Shown here one piece after another: positions 8,096 to 20,802 of a DNA stretch of 21,003 bases. Origin of the DNA: a virus; the IMG/VR virus record IMGVR_UViG_3300028008_000138, positions 1 to 21,003 of that record; one strand, 5' to 3'. The translations under genes were made by a program, and so were the position numbers. How positions within the stretch are numbered: position 1 is the stretch's first letter; every line of letters starts with the position of its first letter. The notes under the pieces were generated by a model that worked only from the letters and a program-made list of their open reading frames with translations, ran no database searches and had not been told where the DNA came from.

Positions 8096-8131
8096 GGCAT
8101 TCCTAATTGGAATTCCGTTAGGATTCCCTAA
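8070..8131. promoter_or_regulatory. Three-site CI/Cro operator array in the cro-cI intergenic region
   Basis: Three versions of a 14-bp palindrome occur at 8070-8083 (TTAGGCATTCCTTA), 8093-8106 (CAAGGCATTCCTAA) and 8118-8131 (TTAGGATTCCCTAA, degenerate), spaced 23 and 25 bp. This is the geometry of a lambda-type three-operator switch. The first site sits in the leftward promoter, and the third touches the cI start codon, so it could mediate cI autoregulation. A GGAATTC motif recurs at 8054-8060 and 8109-8115. Confidence 0.8.
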
Positions 8132-8829
8132 TGAATACTCTTGCAGAACGATTGCAGGCCGCCTTTGAGCGGCGTCCCGACCTGACACAGTCCGGGCTTG
8201 CCAAGGCCTGTGGCATCAAGGCTCCTTCGGTGGCCGACTGGTTGTCAGGTCGCACAAAAAAAATAGAGGGCGCCAACCTGTTGTTGGCTGCCCAATATCT
8301 TGACGTGAACCCCTGGTGGCTTGCGACAGGAAAGGGACAGATTGAATCCTCTCCGAATGCGCTGAAGGTCAGCCGCGTTCACGCTTTGGAGGAAGGCGAA
8401 GAGGATCCGAGGTTTGTGCCGATCAGGACGGTGAAGCTTCAGCTGCAAGCTGGTGTGAATGGAATTGCTTTGGACAAATCAGTGGAGGATGGACCGCCGC
8501 TTTACATGCCACGGCATGTGGTGCAGCGGCACGGATACGTTCCGGGGGACCTCATAGCGATCAAAGTGCGCGGCGGCAGTATGGAGCCGACGCTGTATGA
8601 GGACGATATCGTAGTGATCAATACGGCCGACAAAACGATCAAGGACAACCAGGTCTATGCAGTGAACTATGAGGGCGAAGACGTTGTAAAGCGGCTGGTC
8701 AGGGACAACGGCGATTGGTGGCTCTCTTCTGACAACCCCGATCAGCGGCGCTACCCGCGCAAGCTTTGCCGGGGTGGCGGCTGTGTTGTGATCGGCAGAA
8801 TTGTCTACAAGCAAAGCGAAAACATCTGA
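8131..8829 (+). CDS. cI: CI-type prophage repressor (HTH + S24 peptidase)
   Basis: A 232-aa lysogeny repressor. Residues 4-65 form the HTH domain (LTQSGLAKACGIKAPSVADWLSG). Residues 95-228 form the LexA/CI self-cleavage domain: a probable cleavage site A107-G108 in LQAGVNG, nucleophile S150 in RGGSMEPTL and base K187 in DVVKRL. This predicts SOS (RecA)-triggered autocleavage and prophage induction. It is divergent from cro. The ATG abuts the third operator, with AGGA 7 nt upstream as a modest ribosome-binding site. Its probable targets are the two sets of 14-bp palindromes at 8070-8131 and 10278-10336. Confidence 0.95.
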   Translation: MNTLAERLQAAFERRPDLTQSGLAKACGIKAPSVADWLSGRTKKIEGANLLLAAQYLDVNPWWLATGKGQIESSPNALKVSRVHALEEGEEDPRFVPIRTVKLQLQAGVNGIALDKSVEDGPPLYMPRHVVQRHGYVPGDLIAIKVRGGSMEPTLYEDDIVVINTADKTIKDNQVYAVNYEGEDVVKRLVRDNGDWWLSSDNPDQRRYPRKLCRGGGCVVIGRIVYKQSENI

Positions 8830-10963: not shown

Positions 10964-11463
10964 TGGCACTGACCAAGGACGAACGGCGGGCGCTGGAGTA
11001 TGCACGCAAAGGGATCAAAGAGCAGGGGCGTGAGTATATCTGCGTGCTTATTGAAGAAGCTTGCGACCGGGGAATTTGCAGCGAAGAAGAGTCGACCAGG
11101 TTGCGCACGCACATTGCCAAGCTTCTTTATCCGAAGGCGTCTCTTTCGGGATGGCATCTTTTTAAAAATTGGAACGGTCGTGACCGCGACCAGCGCCGCG
11201 CCGACCGCCTCGCCTGGATTGACTGGATGCTGGGGAAGCCATTGCCTGGCGAAGCCGTGAAGCTGGAATGGCGCGAGAAAAGCGATGAATGCGAAGAGGC
11301 CGAATACTGCGGCCGCCGCTTCCTGCTGACCTGGGCCGACTGGAACAGCCGGTATGTGGTCACTGAGCCTGATGCAGCCTACCACGTGATCGCAGAGCTT
11401 CCGATGAATCGCCGCGACGAAGTTGACGCCGCCATCGTCGCCCACGTGTGGCCAGAAGCATGA
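10963..11463 (+). CDS. Phage protein of unknown function, 166 aa
   Basis: Starts at an ATG overlapping the previous stop, with GGAGGG 7 nt upstream. The N-terminal helix (KDERRALEYARKGIKEQGREYICVLIEEACDRG) is followed by a Trp-rich alpha/beta region (GWHLFKNWNGRDRDQRR..., RLAWIDWMLGKPLPGEAVKLEW) and a C-terminal RRFLLTWADWNSRYVVTEPDAAYHVIAEL. No known motif. It lies before the RecT/exonuclease genes. Confidence 0.78.
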   Translation: MALTKDERRALEYARKGIKEQGREYICVLIEEACDRGICSEEESTRLRTHIAKLLYPKASLSGWHLFKNWNGRDRDQRRADRLAWIDWMLGKPLPGEAVKLEWREKSDECEEAEYCGRRFLLTWADWNSRYVVTEPDAAYHVIAELPMNRRDEVDAAIVAHVWPEA

Positions 11464-11672
11464 AAGCCATCTACGCCGCCGCCCTGCTCTGCCTGTGCTT
11501 CGGCGGTCCTGCAGTGATGTCGCCCGCCGAGCAGGTCTCCAACGAGCACGCCGAGCGCCAAGCCCGCGTGCGCGAAATCAACCAGCGGCACATGCCTTTC
11601 GTGCTGCGCATCGCCAACAAGTTTCCGGCCGCCGAGTTCGGCCAGCCTGTTCAACATCTGGAGAAGAAATGA
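11460..11672 (+). CDS. Small exported protein, 70 aa
   Basis: A signal peptide is visible (MKAIYAAALLCLCFGGPAVMS), with cleavage possible near residues 18-21. It is followed by a hydrophilic helical mature part (QVSNEHAERQARVREINQRH) and a tail ending HLEKK. It overlaps the previous gene by ATGA and the recT start likewise. A cysteine pair in the signal region makes a lipobox unlikely (no L-x-x-C at the right place). Role unknown; a periplasmic product within a recombination operon is unexpected. Confidence 0.65.
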   Translation: MKAIYAAALLCLCFGGPAVMSPAEQVSNEHAERQARVREINQRHMPFVLRIANKFPAAEFGQPVQHLEKK

Positions 11673-12571
11673 GCAACGAGATCGCCTTGCAGCAAGAGAA
11701 GACCGTGGCCGAAGTGTCGCAAATCAGCGCCAGCACCGGCTCGCTGGTCATGGACATCGCCGGTATGGAGCGCATCTATGCCCTGGCTGAGACCATGGCC
11801 GCCGGCCGCGCGACTGTTCCCAAGCACCTGCAGAACAACGCGGCCGATTGCATGGCCGTGGTCATGCAGGCCGTGCAGTGGGGCATGAATCCCTATGTGG
11901 TGGCGCAGAAGACGCACCTGGTCAACGGCACGCTGGGCTACGAGGCGCAGCTGGTGAACGCCGTGGTGCAGTCGTCGGGTGCCATCGTTGGCCGATTCCA
12001 CTACGAATACCAGGGCGAAGGCCAGACGCTGGCCTGCCGTGTCGGCGCAGTCATCGCTGGCGAGCAGGAAATCACCTGGAACGAGTGGCTTTGCATCAAG
12101 CAAGTCACCACCCAGAATTCCCCGCTGTGGAAGACGAACCCCAAGCAGCAGCTGGGCTACCTGCAGGTGAAGAACTGGGCGCGTGCATACAAGCCTGGCG
12201 CGATCCTGGGCGTCTACACCTCCGACGAGCTGTACGACATGCCGGCGCCTGCCGGTCGCAACATGGGCAGCGCTGACATCGTTGGCCCTTCTGCTGAACT
12301 GCTGCAGCAAGCCAATGCCGCCGCCGAACAAGGCGTGGCCGCGTACCAGGATTTCTTCCAGAACACCAGCAAGGAAAACCGCAAGGCGCTGGCCGGTGAG
12401 CATGATGCGCTGAAGAAGAAGGCACAGGCCGCAGATGCCGCGCGCACCGTGGACAACAAGCCTGCTACTCAGGCGCAGACCGATGCTGTGGATGTGGACT
12501 TCGTGGCCGCCATGGACGAGGCCGATGCAAAGCAGCAGGCCGGTGATGATGGCGACTACGTCCCGCAGTGA
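11669..12571 (+). CDS. recT: RecT-family single-strand annealing protein
   Basis: A 300-aa recombinase that binds ssDNA and anneals complementary strands in phage recombination. Residues 35-200 carry the RecT core: AGMERIYALAETMAAGRATVPKHL, CMAVVMQAVQWGMNPYVVAQKTHLV, YEAQLVNAVVQSSGAI, and the LQVKNWARAYKPGAILGVYT segment near 165. The C-terminal about 90 residues are Ala/Gln/Asp-rich and acidic (DDGDYVPQ end), as in RecT/Bet proteins that contact other factors. It starts as ATGA over the upstream stop. It is followed by a YqaJ-type exonuclease, the usual exonuclease-annealase pair. Confidence 0.93.
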   Translation: MSNEIALQQEKTVAEVSQISASTGSLVMDIAGMERIYALAETMAAGRATVPKHLQNNAADCMAVVMQAVQWGMNPYVVAQKTHLVNGTLGYEAQLVNAVVQSSGAIVGRFHYEYQGEGQTLACRVGAVIAGEQEITWNEWLCIKQVTTQNSPLWKTNPKQQLGYLQVKNWARAYKPGAILGVYTSDELYDMPAPAGRNMGSADIVGPSAELLQQANAAAEQGVAAYQDFFQNTSKENRKALAGEHDALKKKAQAADAARTVDNKPATQAQTDAVDVDFVAAMDEADAKQQAGDDGDYVPQ

Positions 12572-12578
12572 GCAGGCC

Positions 12579-13349
12579 ATGATCGTCTACAACTGCGAAC
12601 AAGGCACACAGGAATGGCACAACTGCCGAAGCGGCGTCATCACCGCCAGCATGTTTCGCGTGGCGCGCACGAAGGTGAACTGCCTGGATGAGCGCCAGCA
12701 GGATTACGTCAAGGCCATCCTGCGCGGGCAGTCGCAAAAGGAGGCCATGGAGTTCGCTGGCTACAAGGCAGCGCCCAAGGCCGAAGCCATCCAGCGCGCT
12801 TTGGACGGCGAGAAGGTCGGCGACTATTCCGACGCTGCCAAGGACTACGCATTCCGCCTGGCCGTCGAGCGCATCAGCGGAGCGCCACTGGATGAGGGCT
12901 TCGAAACCTACGCGATGCGGCGCGGGCATGAGATGGAGCCCGAGGCACGCATGGAGCACGAGGTACAGACCGGCCTGCTGGTCGAGCCGTGCGGCTTCGT
13001 GGCCACCGATGATCGTCTCTTCGGCGGCAGCGCTGACGGCCTGATTGGTGCAGACGGGGGTGCCGAATACAAGTGCCTGATCTCGCCGGAAGAAATCCGC
13101 CGCATCTGGTTCGGTGACGACTGGAGCAAGTACACCGACCAAGTGCAAGGTTGCCTGTGGCTGACCGGCCGCAAGTGGTGGGACTTCTGCATGTACTGCC
13201 CTGCGCTGGCGCCCATCGGCAAGCAGCTGTGGCGTCGCCGCGTGGAGCGCGACGAAGCATACATCGAGGCGCTGGAGGCCGATCTGATGGAGTTCAAGAC
13301 GCTGGTGGACGAGTGCGAGCGCAAGCTGCGGGAGGACGCATGCGCCTGA
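12579..13349 (+). CDS. YqaJ/lambda-type exonuclease
   Basis: A 256-aa nuclease of the PD-(D/E)XK class that would resect double-strand ends to feed RecT. The conserved opening CEQGTQEWHNCRSGVITAS is at 6-24. RRGHEMEPEAR supplies an early Glu (about E120), GGSADGLIG the catalytic D153, and AEYKC the E163-x-K165 pair. YTDQVQG (185-191) is the family's Gln motif. Residues 36-90 form the inserted helical region. The start is the ATG 7 nt after the recT stop; an earlier ATG at 12546 inside recT would add 11 residues. The end overlaps the next gene by 10 nt. Confidence 0.92.
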   Translation: MIVYNCEQGTQEWHNCRSGVITASMFRVARTKVNCLDERQQDYVKAILRGQSQKEAMEFAGYKAAPKAEAIQRALDGEKVGDYSDAAKDYAFRLAVERISGAPLDEGFETYAMRRGHEMEPEARMEHEVQTGLLVEPCGFVATDDRLFGGSADGLIGADGGAEYKCLISPEEIRRIWFGDDWSKYTDQVQGCLWLTGRKWWDFCMYCPALAPIGKQLWRRRVERDEAYIEALEADLMEFKTLVDECERKLREDACA

Positions 13350-13561: not shown

Positions 13562-14072
13562 ATTCGTCGCACAGCCCGTGAAACTGAACAAGGTATCGAC
13601 CCCCATGGAAAACCACGGCCAAGAGCTGAAGCTCGGCGTCGTGCTGACCTGCCAGGCCGTTTTGCCCAACACCATCCTGAAGGCGTTTGGCGCTGGCCTG
13701 CTCGAATCGATGTATCGCAAGCCGACCGAAGAAGAGCGCGCCGACCTGGCCACCGATCCGGACTCGCTGTGCATGATCAAACATCCGCGCATGGGCCCCT
13801 TCAGCTGGGACTACGAGAGCGAGGGCTATACCGCTGTAGTCGACCATGGTCTCGGCGGCGAGAGCAATCTCAAGCTGGTGGACTGCAAGGTGCGCGAAAT
13901 CGAGATCACGCCGATGGAAGGCGCGGTCGTGCAGATCAGGTTCAACATCAACTGCCATCCGGATCCAAAGGACGTTGGCGCACTGGCCGCCAAGCAAAAG
14001 CAGGACATCAACATGCAGCTGAATGGGCCGGAGCCGCAAACGGCTGAAGACCTGTTCAACAAGGCAGCGTAA
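13554..14072 (+). CDS. Phage protein of unknown function in the recombination block, 172 aa
   Basis: Start ATG with AGGAG 8 nt upstream and an 8-nt overlap with the preceding gene. The protein looks beta-rich (ELKLGVVLTCQAVLPN, SWDYESEGYTAVVDHG, NLKLVDCKVREIEITPMEGAVVQIRFNINC), followed by a helical acidic tail (AALAAKQKQDI..., EDLFNKAA). The fold pattern and place after RecT/exonuclease suggest an ssDNA-binding or recombination accessory. I do not recognise the family, so this is inference. Confidence 0.78.
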   Translation: MFEFVAQPVKLNKVSTPMENHGQELKLGVVLTCQAVLPNTILKAFGAGLLESMYRKPTEEERADLATDPDSLCMIKHPRMGPFSWDYESEGYTAVVDHGLGGESNLKLVDCKVREIEITPMEGAVVQIRFNINCHPDPKDVGALAAKQKQDINMQLNGPEPQTAEDLFNKAA

Positions 14073-14451
14073 TCCCCCCGTGCCAGTCCCCCGCTGGCTT
14101 CGCGCTTCCTCCGACGCCGGAAATATCGGAGGGCCAACATCTGGAAGGTGTAACGGTTCATGCGTCCGGAGCACAGACGTTGCAGTGCGGATAAACACCG
14201 CCCTTCCAGATGTTGGTGAATGCCAGGGCTGACTGGCTTAGGGTCAATCTTAGGGAACCTGCGAACCCGGAATGCTGCAGGTGAGCCGAAAGTGCGAGAG
14301 ACAGGGTTCACAACTTGCCGCCCGACACAGGCGCAAAAGCTGGAGATCAGCACCAGCCACCAACACGCGGGGAATGCCAAGGACAGTTCCGCGAAAAGCT
14401 ACAGCTTGGCTGACAGCCGGGAAAGACCGGCACGAATTCACAGGAGCCCCC
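14073..14451 (+). ncRNA. Gene-free, hairpin-rich interval; candidate structured RNA or leader
   Basis: This is the only large gap in the rightward operon (379 bp), and its frames look like non-coding translations. It folds by eye into successive hairpins on the plus strand: GCCAG/CTGGC (14082-14098), CCTCCGA/TCGGAGG (14108-14132), a 15-bp perfect long-range stem (14134-14216), GCCAG/CTGGC again (14222-14237), ACCTGC/GCAGGT (14257-14282), GTGAGCC/GGTTCAC with one G-U pair (14281-14311), and GCCGG/CCGGC near 14416-14431. None has a terminator T-tract. It may be a regulatory RNA, an attenuator or an untranslated leader for the accessory genes. Confidence 0.45.
14134..14216. repeat. 15-bp perfect inverted repeat with 53-nt loop
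   Basis: CCAACATCTGGAAGG at 14134-14148 is the exact reverse complement of 14202-14216. The loop contains a smaller possible stem (TCC...GCAC with GTGC...GGA). Such a long perfect stem is unlikely by chance in an interval this short. It lies wholly within the gene-free region. Confidence 0.85.
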
Positions 14452-14616
14452 ATGGCAACAGAAGTGCAAAAAATCCTGCAGGCGAATCGCGAAGGCGTGA
14501 AGCTTGGCCTGCAGCAAGGTGCGGACATCATGCGCGAGCGCGTGCTTGCGCTGGGACTGCCGCAGGACATCGCCGCTAAGGTGGCGGCTATTCAGATTGG
14601 AGAGGTGAAGAAATGA
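14452..14616 (+). CDS. Small helical phage protein, 54 aa
   Basis: The start has AGGAG 5 nt upstream. Sequence: ATEVQKILQANREGVKLGLQ..., then MRERVLALGLPQDIAAKVAAIQIGE. Its two amphipathic helices suggest a small dimer. It is the first gene after the structured gap and is ATGA-coupled to the next. Longer frames reaching back into the gap lack ribosome-binding sites and look non-coding. Confidence 0.65.
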   Translation: MATEVQKILQANREGVKLGLQQGADIMRERVLALGLPQDIAAKVAAIQIGEVKK

Positions 14617-19467: not shown

Positions 19468-19693
19468 TTACTTGGACGCGCATGAGGTGGCTGCACTTGT
19501 AGGGTGTCTGCCAGGTAGCAAAGCATGCATGCGCCGCTGGCTGGATCGTAATAATTGGCCATACGAATGCAACCGCGTTGGTTTTCCATTGGTATCGCGT
19601 GCCTATCACGATGCGCGCCTGGCTGGCGCTTCTGTGGATGTGGCGCAGGCCGAGCAACGCGTCGAGCCGAACTTCGCGGCGCTGCTGGCATGA
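19457..19693 (+). CDS. DUF4224-family protein preceding the integrase
   Basis: A 78-aa protein: YLDAHEVAALVGCLPGSKACMRRWLDRNNWPYECNRVGFPLV..., ending VEPNFAALLA. It matches the DUF4224 layout (helical N-terminal part with a W-P-x-E segment, then R-AYHDARL, then P-NF). Such proteins are commonly encoded just before phage integrases; a role in excision or regulating int is suggested by position. I chose the third of three consecutive ATGs because GGGAG lies 6 nt upstream. It overlaps int by ATGA. Confidence 0.82.
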   Translation: MKSNYLDAHEVAALVGCLPGSKACMRRWLDRNNWPYECNRVGFPLVSRAYHDARLAGASVDVAQAEQRVEPNFAALLA

Positions 19694-20802
19694 TCGGCCG
19701 TCGCAAGACTCCGGACGGCCTGCCGTTCCGCCTGTATGTGACCAAGGGAAAGTTCAAGGTCCGCTACTTCTACAAGCTGCCAGGCGGCAAGCTGGCGTTC
19801 AGCCTCACCGCGCGCGCCAACAATGCCGCTGAGGTGGCCGCCGTGCGCAAGGATGCCATTGGCCGAGCCGAAATCCTGAATGGGCATGCGGCTGCGCCCG
19901 GCACCGTTGGCGCGCTCATCACCGCCTATTTCCGCTGGCAGGACAAGATGCCGCGCGATAGCGAGGACCGGAAGGCCGAAGGAACGCTGATCGAGAACAA
20001 GCGCGAGAAGAAGAACCTGGAGAAGGTGTTCGGCTTGATGGCGCCGCAGGACATCCGCCCCAAGGATGTCTATGGCTACCTGGCCGCGCGCGCCGCGCAG
20101 GGGGCACCGGCCAAGGCCAACAAGGAAATCGCCCTGCTGTCGGCGATTCTGGAATATGGGCGCCGCCTGGGCCAGCTGGAAGTGAACCCATGCCGCGACA
20201 TCCGCTACAACAAGACTCGGCCCAGCACCAAGTTCGTGGAGTGGTCTCACGTGGAGTTTGCTATAGCAGAGGCTCGTCGCCGGGGCGGTAGTTATCTGGT
20301 CTGCGCGCTGTGCGTCATGGCCGCCTACCTGACCGTCAGCCGGCCTACCGAGATGCGCATGCTGACGCGGCAGAGCGAGTCGCCGGAAGGGCTGCGCATC
20401 GCCGTGGGCAAACGCAAGGCAGGCCAGGCCCAGAAACACAAGCTGATCGAGTGGTCTCCGGAGTTGCGCGCAGTGATTGATGAGGCCAAGACGCTGCAGC
20501 GCACCGCAAGCATCTACCTTTTCGGCAATGCCGAAGGCCAGCCATACACCCGCAGCGGCTGGAACACGATCTGGACACGCCTGATGGTCTACTGCGAGGA
20601 ACTGGCCAAGGAGGAAGGCAAGACGTTCGAGCGGTTTACCCTGGCCAACATGCGGCCTACGTCGATCACAGACCGCCTGGACTCCAACGATGAGACCACG
20701 CGCACCGGTGAGGCCAGCGGACACGCCGACGGCAGAATGGTAGCGAAGGTCTACGACCGGCGCACCGTGAAGCGATCAAAGGCCACGCCGATTAAGGGCT
20801 GA
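19690..20802 (+). CDS. int: Tyrosine-family phage integrase
   Basis: A 370-aa site-specific recombinase. Residues 1-65 are the arm-binding type N-terminus and 70-165 the core-binding domain. The catalytic domain begins near 185, with R218 in TVSRPTEMR, a beta-hairpin Lys in KRKAGQAQKHK, box II R322 in LANMRPT, H345 in SGHADGR and nucleophile Y355 in KVYDRR. The usual first His of HxxR is Ala (A319). The gene reads toward the tRNA-His fragment about 105 bp downstream, the attachment site it presumably recognises. The start overlaps the DUF4224 stop, so int seems expressed from the long rightward operon. Confidence 0.93.
   Translation: MIGRRKTPDGLPFRLYVTKGKFKVRYFYKLPGGKLAFSLTARANNAAEVAAVRKDAIGRAEILNGHAAAPGTVGALITAYFRWQDKMPRDSEDRKAEGTLIENKREKKNLEKVFGLMAPQDIRPKDVYGYLAARAAQGAPAKANKEIALLSAILEYGRRLGQLEVNPCRDIRYNKTRPSTKFVEWSHVEFAIAEARRRGGSYLVCALCVMAAYLTVSRPTEMRMLTRQSESPEGLRIAVGKRKAGQAQKHKLIEWSPELRAVIDEAKTLQRTASIYLFGNAEGQPYTRSGWNTIWTRLMVYCEELAKEEGKTFERFTLANMRPTSITDRLDSNDETTRTGEASGHADGRMVAKVYDRRTVKRSKATPIKG

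Follow-up and report, generated by a model that had tools for sequence, protein, structure and literature searches.

A phage-borne family of structured RNAs with a predicted tRNA-like junction and two competing stems

The window analyzed here is a stretch of 21,003 nt of viral DNA (IMG/VR record IMGVR_UViG_3300028008_000138, positions 1–21,003). Comparison with homologs shows that the gap between genes at positions 14073–14451 encodes, on the plus strand, a member of a structured RNA family, in which a hairpin termed P1 is followed by a tRNA-like four-way junction that is predicted to be closed by a kiss between two of its loops. The family occurs in phages and prophages of Pseudomonadota, with many bacterial viruses carrying members, often within or next to clusters of tRNA genes, and it is apparently new relative to Rfam 15 and open-access papers. 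The explanation that we favor on balance, with moderate confidence, is that the element may be a trans-acting accessory RNA of the tRNA-operon type, excised from a longer transcript and containing a strand-exchange switch between stem P1 and a second stem, P2.

The window contains, in order, genes for a CI-like repressor (8131–8829), a RecT-like annealing protein (11423–12571), and a RecE-like exonuclease (within 12435–13349). The exonuclease gene is followed by two genes to which no named function was assigned, and then by the gap; beyond it come several small genes in a row and an integrase gene (19555–20802). The gap is bounded by a gene stop at 14072 and an ATG at 14452, which is preceded by a Shine–Dalgarno sequence (AGGAG) and is conserved in relatives that have different upstream sequence. 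The original prediction held that the gap is real and lacks a credible gene, and our data agree, as none of the open reading frames crossing it has a match among PHROG or Pfam families; a conserved open reading frame was rejected, none having been found in the gap. The hairpins that it described are also real and beyond chance. The predicted folding energy of the interval is better than that of 100 of 100 shuffled sequences on both strands (z = −3.5 on the plus and −4.0 on the minus strand), the 15-bp perfect stem with a 53-nt loop is present as the inverted repeat 14134–14148/14202–14216, and the two hairpins with a GCCAG/CTGGC stem are found at 14082–14098 and 14222–14237. What it overlooked is a second stem, 14211–14218/14358–14365, with which the 15-bp stem competes. 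Folding energy alone is weak evidence, and relatives were therefore sought; covariation among homologs in every helix is much stronger evidence. The interval contains no sigma-70-like promoter and no plus-strand terminator-like site, so that an independent transcript of it is not supported.

The whole element is a structured RNA of approximately 234 nt (14133–14366; this and all features below are on the plus strand), with borders placed by reference to members that sit in tRNA arrays. At its 5′ end is stem P1, in which the 5′ strand GCCAACATCTGGAAGG (14133–14148) pairs with 14202–14217. The conserved core (14211–14365) is the tRNA-like four-way junction, arranged in the order P2, AA, hairpin A, variable domain, hairpin B, and the 3′ strand of P2. 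The P2 5′ strand TGTTGGTG (14211–14218) takes the position of an acceptor stem and is joined to hairpin A by an AA linker (14219–14220) equivalent to tRNA positions 8–9. Hairpin A (GCCAG-GGCTGA-CTGGC, 14222–14237) occupies the D-arm position, and hairpin B (GCTGG-AGATCAGCA-CCAGC, 14339–14357) occupies the T-arm position, where it directly abuts the P2 3′ strand CACCAACA (14358–14365) with 0 nt between them. Loop A (GCUGA in the RNA; GCTGA at 14228–14232) is complementary to loop B (UCAGC; TCAGC at 14347–14351), with which it is predicted to pair, and invariant positions in the family fall mainly in these loops and in the inner pairs of hairpin B. The variable middle domain (14238–14338) is 101 nt long here and about 37–176 nt in other members. 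No shared sequence was found in this domain across members; stems of at least 6 bp occur within it in 52% of members versus 25% of shuffled sequences, and a helix at the anticodon-arm position is weakly supported. In one member (L221, 3944–4056) the middle domain carries tRNA-like D-arm and T-arm sequence but lacks an anticodon arm, as might result from capture of a tRNA.

The last 7 nt of the P1 3′ strand (14202–14217) also belong to the 5′ strand of P2. Because the two stems share this strand they compete, and the RNA has two mutually exclusive arrangements. Among 30 distinct members whose P1 is strong, 25–27 allow shared positions 3–6 to pair with both the P1 and the P2 partner, even as the identity of the shared base differs between members; the 5′ strand of P1 is therefore nearly a copy of the 3′ strand of P2. 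With the kiss excluded, the predicted energy gap between the P1 and P2 states is about 0–10 kcal/mol; in the window the corresponding values are −87.4 kcal/mol for P1 and −82.3 kcal/mol for P2 with inner P1. The kiss could tip the balance between the two states.

A BLAST search with the whole interval matched only 27–29 nt of it (14336–14364), in Iodobacter phage PhiPLPE and in an Edwardsiella plasmid. The matched stretch is hairpin B with its flanks, and no gene is annotated there in either sequence. The plasmid copy (L019, 2600 onwards) is located just upstream of the apparent start of an IS3-type transposase. More members were collected using pattern scans of IMG/VR and BLAST with a 32-nt core against phages, plasmids, and E. 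coli, where counts from the core are upper bounds because so short a query yields some chance matches by itself. A structural filter left 97 distinct members and removed some of the first IMG/VR pattern matches, which were chance hits in coding-like sequence; pattern matches from GTDB in Actinobacteria, Bacteroidota, and others were discarded, as they scored little beyond the pattern itself. Confirmed genome matches lie in Gamma-, Beta-, and Alphaproteobacteria, one Magnetococcales MAG, and one Verrucomicrobiota MAG. Among 398 genomes drawn across one phylum, 8 contain a match, three of them weak. The element travels with phages and is not a core gene.

A covariance search, which the original prediction had proposed among its checks, reveals compensatory changes among homologs in every helix. 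In an alignment of 59 members and 24 pairs, 95.6% of the cells are paired and 18 of the 24 pairs have changed on both sides, compared with 7–11 pairs in slid controls. The covariation score of these 59 members is 0.382, versus 0.111 for shuffled and 0.04–0.10 for slid alignments (maximum 0.104), and double-sided changes are seen among them for every one of the nine P2 and five hairpin A pairs. As the members had been prefiltered for a P2 of at least 6 bp, the P2 test was repeated without this filter: P2 is present in 56 of 65 matches that have both hairpins and in 4 of 83 that do not, and it appears in 9% of cases when partners are swapped between members. A partly independent set of 53 sequences, consisting of model matches mostly from outside the training set with a few rows in or near it, scores 0.448 versus 0.121, in an alignment that was fitted to the structure and so favors the score. 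The kiss covaries as well, with GCUGA/UCAGC replaced by ACUGA/UCAGU in PhiPLPE and others and by GGUGAU/AUCACC in the diverged second copy of L008. One pair is broken in a few members (L051, L065). When the two end pairs of P2 are excluded, the non-Watson–Crick cells comprise 20 G-U, 5 A-C, and 4 others. In a DNA palindrome, G-T and A-C mismatches would be equally expected, and the asymmetry therefore points to RNA of the plus strand; together with the compensatory changes, it supports an RNA and disfavors a DNA site.

To place the element in its locus, we compared the window with four relatives whose flanks are about 93–94% identical, in one case about 90% over a longer stretch. The position that the element fills in the window is an exchangeable slot, which is empty in two relatives (L339 and L340), holds a tRNA-Thr(UGU) gene in a third (L341; confirmed by ARAGORN, as L336), and in the fourth (L338) is taken up by another long hairpin, whose base stem measures 15 bp. 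Upstream of the slot, two hairpins are kept in all five loci. The first (GCCAGT-CCCCC-GCTGGC, 14082–14098) is constant in all relatives of the locus. The second (14107–14133) is present with the slot filled or empty, and across the five relatives its stem has four different sequences, always paired, around the constant loop GCCGGAAATA; with its fully covarying stem, it is a second structured RNA element. Downstream, within 14366–14432, are further hairpins at 14366–14393, 14397–14411, and 14416–14431. These may represent a second, degenerate unit in a tandem array, and the last of them (GCCGGGAAAGACCGGC) appears to resemble a hairpin found just upstream of stem P1 in other members. The downstream gene is the same in four of the five loci. 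Its retention in phages whose slot is empty or carries a tRNA gene speaks against a role in cis on this gene and for an interchangeable RNA cassette; at other loci, what follows the element is a tRNA or an unrelated gene. The premise that phages rarely keep such a gap unless it works is not quite right here, as close relatives manage without the element. A parallel is provided by the lambdoid late-operon slot, which holds tRNA genes in phages L and Sf6 and none in P22 (PMC8022706); in lambda, the same late-operon gap contains a P1/P2 element in which hairpins A and B are absent.

The association with tRNA genes extends beyond this locus. A tRNA gene is found no more than 600 nt away from 16 of the 97 members, compared with 4.9% for random placements in the same DNA, and the other 81 lack a tRNA within that distance in the DNA examined. 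In arrays, several members are spaced 1–13 nt from tRNAs. The element starts 1 nt after a tRNA in L217 and L251 and ends 4–7 nt before the next one in L217, L119, L143, L201, and L246, and it is this spacing that suggests the element borders. The neighboring tRNAs in arrays are on the same strand as the element. Units also occur in tandem, alternate with tRNA genes in phages similar to P1, P7, and D6, and in some cases flank a tRNA gene on both sides. T-arm-like sequence is present in 7 of 57 P1 loops, where about 0.1 would be expected, and in some members (L018, L032, L104) a terminator-like hairpin with a T-run comes soon after P2. In phage P1 (L334, 973–1542), the annotated minus-strand genes plp and upl overlap tRNA-Thr and tandem RNA units, and these two may be spurious open reading frames.

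The Rfam 15 search suggested in the original prediction returned no family overlapping the element at gathering or relaxed thresholds. The best sub-threshold matches, to Transposase-2 (window, minus strand, E = 0.041) and to tRNA-Sec (P1 region of L246), were both well below the cut-off, and the Transposase-2 match and one to rydB (18 nt, also sub-threshold) were chance-like. Neither the tRNA covariance model RF00005 nor ARAGORN calls a tRNA in the element. It nevertheless has the order and spacing of the canonical cloverleaf, with an acceptor-like P2, a 2-nt linker, a D-arm-like hairpin, and a T-arm-like hairpin abutting P2, and it shares with tRNAs a T-arm-like hairpin of 5 bp, a loop–loop contact, and the ability to exchange with a tRNA gene in one slot. 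It differs from them in its 9-nt T-type loop AGAUCAGCA, which is not a TψC loop, and in its Watson–Crick kiss of 5–6 bp; in addition, it has no anticodon-arm consensus, its P2 is often longer than 7 bp, and it possesses an extra 5′ hairpin, P1. GOLLD and ROOL are likewise structured RNAs that phages carry near tRNA islands, and they too combine kissing loops with variable parts (PMC12286853), but they differ in size, secondary structure, and sequence, and their Rfam models give no match to the element at gathering score. T4 rnaC and rnaD resemble it in being small stable RNAs (119–139 nt) at the end of a phage tRNA cluster; however, rnaC has an ordinary GTTCGAATC T-arm sequence, and both were rejected as homologs, having no match to the family model R1. 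The Pas sRNAs were rejected on their description (PasA is 84 nt, terminator-ended, and has esterase/holin neighbors; PMC13192938). A riboswitch should have a consistent downstream gene under cis control, whereas here the downstream genes are unrelated and the slot is dispensable. The HK022 put RNA consists of phage leader RNA hairpins, with a size and layout different from those of the element.

Simpler P1/P2 relatives also occur in the tRNA operons of phages P1 and P7, in lambda, and in the Rac prophage of E. coli K-12. The Rac-type and phage P1/P7 units were recognized by architecture together with model scores that range from weak to strong, and the lambda relative by layout and BLAST only. 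The lambda sequence (NC_001416, 44787–44941; L332, 388–542) contains CACAACAGGTAAGAGCATTG...CAGTGCTCTTTCCGTTGTG and GTTGTGCTG/CAGCACAAC, and in its minimum-energy fold P2 forms together with the inner portion of P1. It is found in the Q–S gap, a short distance past the T-run of the preceding terminator, where no feature is annotated. In Rac, a diverged unit (1418262–1418390; L365, 2763–2891) lies in the kilR leader with a P1-like hairpin upstream of it (1418481–1418566), and the loops of this unit, GCUAA and AGGCA, differ from those of the element and pair poorly. Between the hairpin and the diverged P2 unit is KilS (b4833; 1418405–1418502), which overlaps the P1 3′ strand and has its 5′ end in the 3′ half of the P1-like hairpin. 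KilS is a northern-verified sRNA that is reported to be able to use its own promoter (PMC8175672). Unlike the element, it is a terminator-ended sRNA of 98 nt and not a cloverleaf, and no short terminator-ended sRNA of this type was found in the interval of the window. KilS 3′-like sequence (GCTGTGTGTAGTCTTGGCGG, then a GC-rich hairpin) is present downstream of the element in L004 and L013, and a KilS-type sRNA may often follow the element. Of 5426 E. coli genomes, 4685 gave a BLAST match to a query of the phage P1/P7 type that includes a related unit, counting matches to any part of the query.

Three roles had originally been offered for the interval: a trans-acting RNA, a cis-acting element, and a recombination or replication site. 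That it specifies an RNA stands, and a trans-acting RNA appears to fit best, with a cis role for the next gene and a DNA site both disfavored. We envisage that the RNA would be cut, as tRNAs are, from a longer phage transcript, here that of the recombination operon and elsewhere those of tRNA or late operons. During transcription stem P1 would fold first, and as hairpin B and the last 8–9 nt emerge, the kiss would form and the 3′ strand would displace the lower part of P1. The stable product would then act in trans as an accessory (moron-like) RNA. The cloverleaf layout of the element and its place in tRNA slots suggest that its likeliest partners would be tRNA-handling proteins or ribosomes; it might, for example, divert as a decoy a host nuclease directed at tRNA in the course of infection. 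Its function is perhaps that of a decoy or tRNA mimic.

The competing stems P1 and P2 also look like an expression platform, and members sit within long operons of phages (in the window that of recombination, in lambda the late leader immediately downstream of tR′, and in Rac the kil leader), as would suit a cis element that acts as an attenuator or as a nascent RNA passing terminators or polarity like the HK022 put RNA, with P1/P2 as the switch. We consider this unlikely, as near-identical phages retain the downstream gene whether their slot is vacant or has a tRNA in it, the genes or tRNAs that follow the element are unrelated, copies occur in tandem as well as to either side of a tRNA gene, and in three members a terminator-like hairpin and T-run come soon after P2. 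The close spacing to tRNAs and the position of the KilS 5′ end within the Rac P1-like hairpin are what would be expected if P1 and the cloverleaf were processing signals, that is, substrates that set cuts by RNase III, RNase P, or RNase E and free neighboring tRNAs, sRNAs, and mRNAs. This seems quite improbable to us: conserved kissing loops and a cloverleaf exceed the needs of a cleavage site, phage tRNA genes exist without the element (as in L341), and KilS reportedly can use its own promoter (PMC8175672).

The kiss might instead form between molecules and build homo-oligomers like those of GOLLD and ROOL, which are similarly phage-borne, near tRNA genes, and endowed with conserved kissing loops and variable inserts, some with tRNA-like pieces (PMC12286853). 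There is little to recommend this for an RNA of about 200–300 nt, when GOLLD often exceeds 800 nt (PMC12286853), the Rfam scans match neither family, and the positions of the loops make an intramolecular kiss easy. The palindromes, tandem arrays, and exchangeable slot behind the recombination operon could also suggest a recombination, replication, or packaging site at the DNA level, in the form of cruciforms or attC-like folded single strands; the excess of G-U over A-C in the stems, the conservation of single-stranded loops, and the location of array tRNAs on the same strand make this the most remote of the alternatives, and we give it very little credence.

Taken more broadly, and here we are tentative, the family may represent a widespread class of phage RNAs that are tRNA-shaped by virtue of a kissing-loop elbow, toggle between two folds through strand exchange, interchange with tRNA genes as cassettes, and act in trans on host tRNA-handling systems, for instance as decoys against tRNA-cutting defense. 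If the analysis is correct, a structured RNA family of many phages and prophages has escaped both Rfam and genome annotation, in which such stretches are left blank or filled with hypothetical open reading frames. Simpler relatives would be present in model phages, namely in the lambda Q–S gap, the phage P1/P7 tRNA operon, and Rac, and their presence in standard laboratory phages makes testing easy. The finding would also raise the question of why phages swap tRNA genes for tRNA-shaped RNAs that are unlike working tRNAs.
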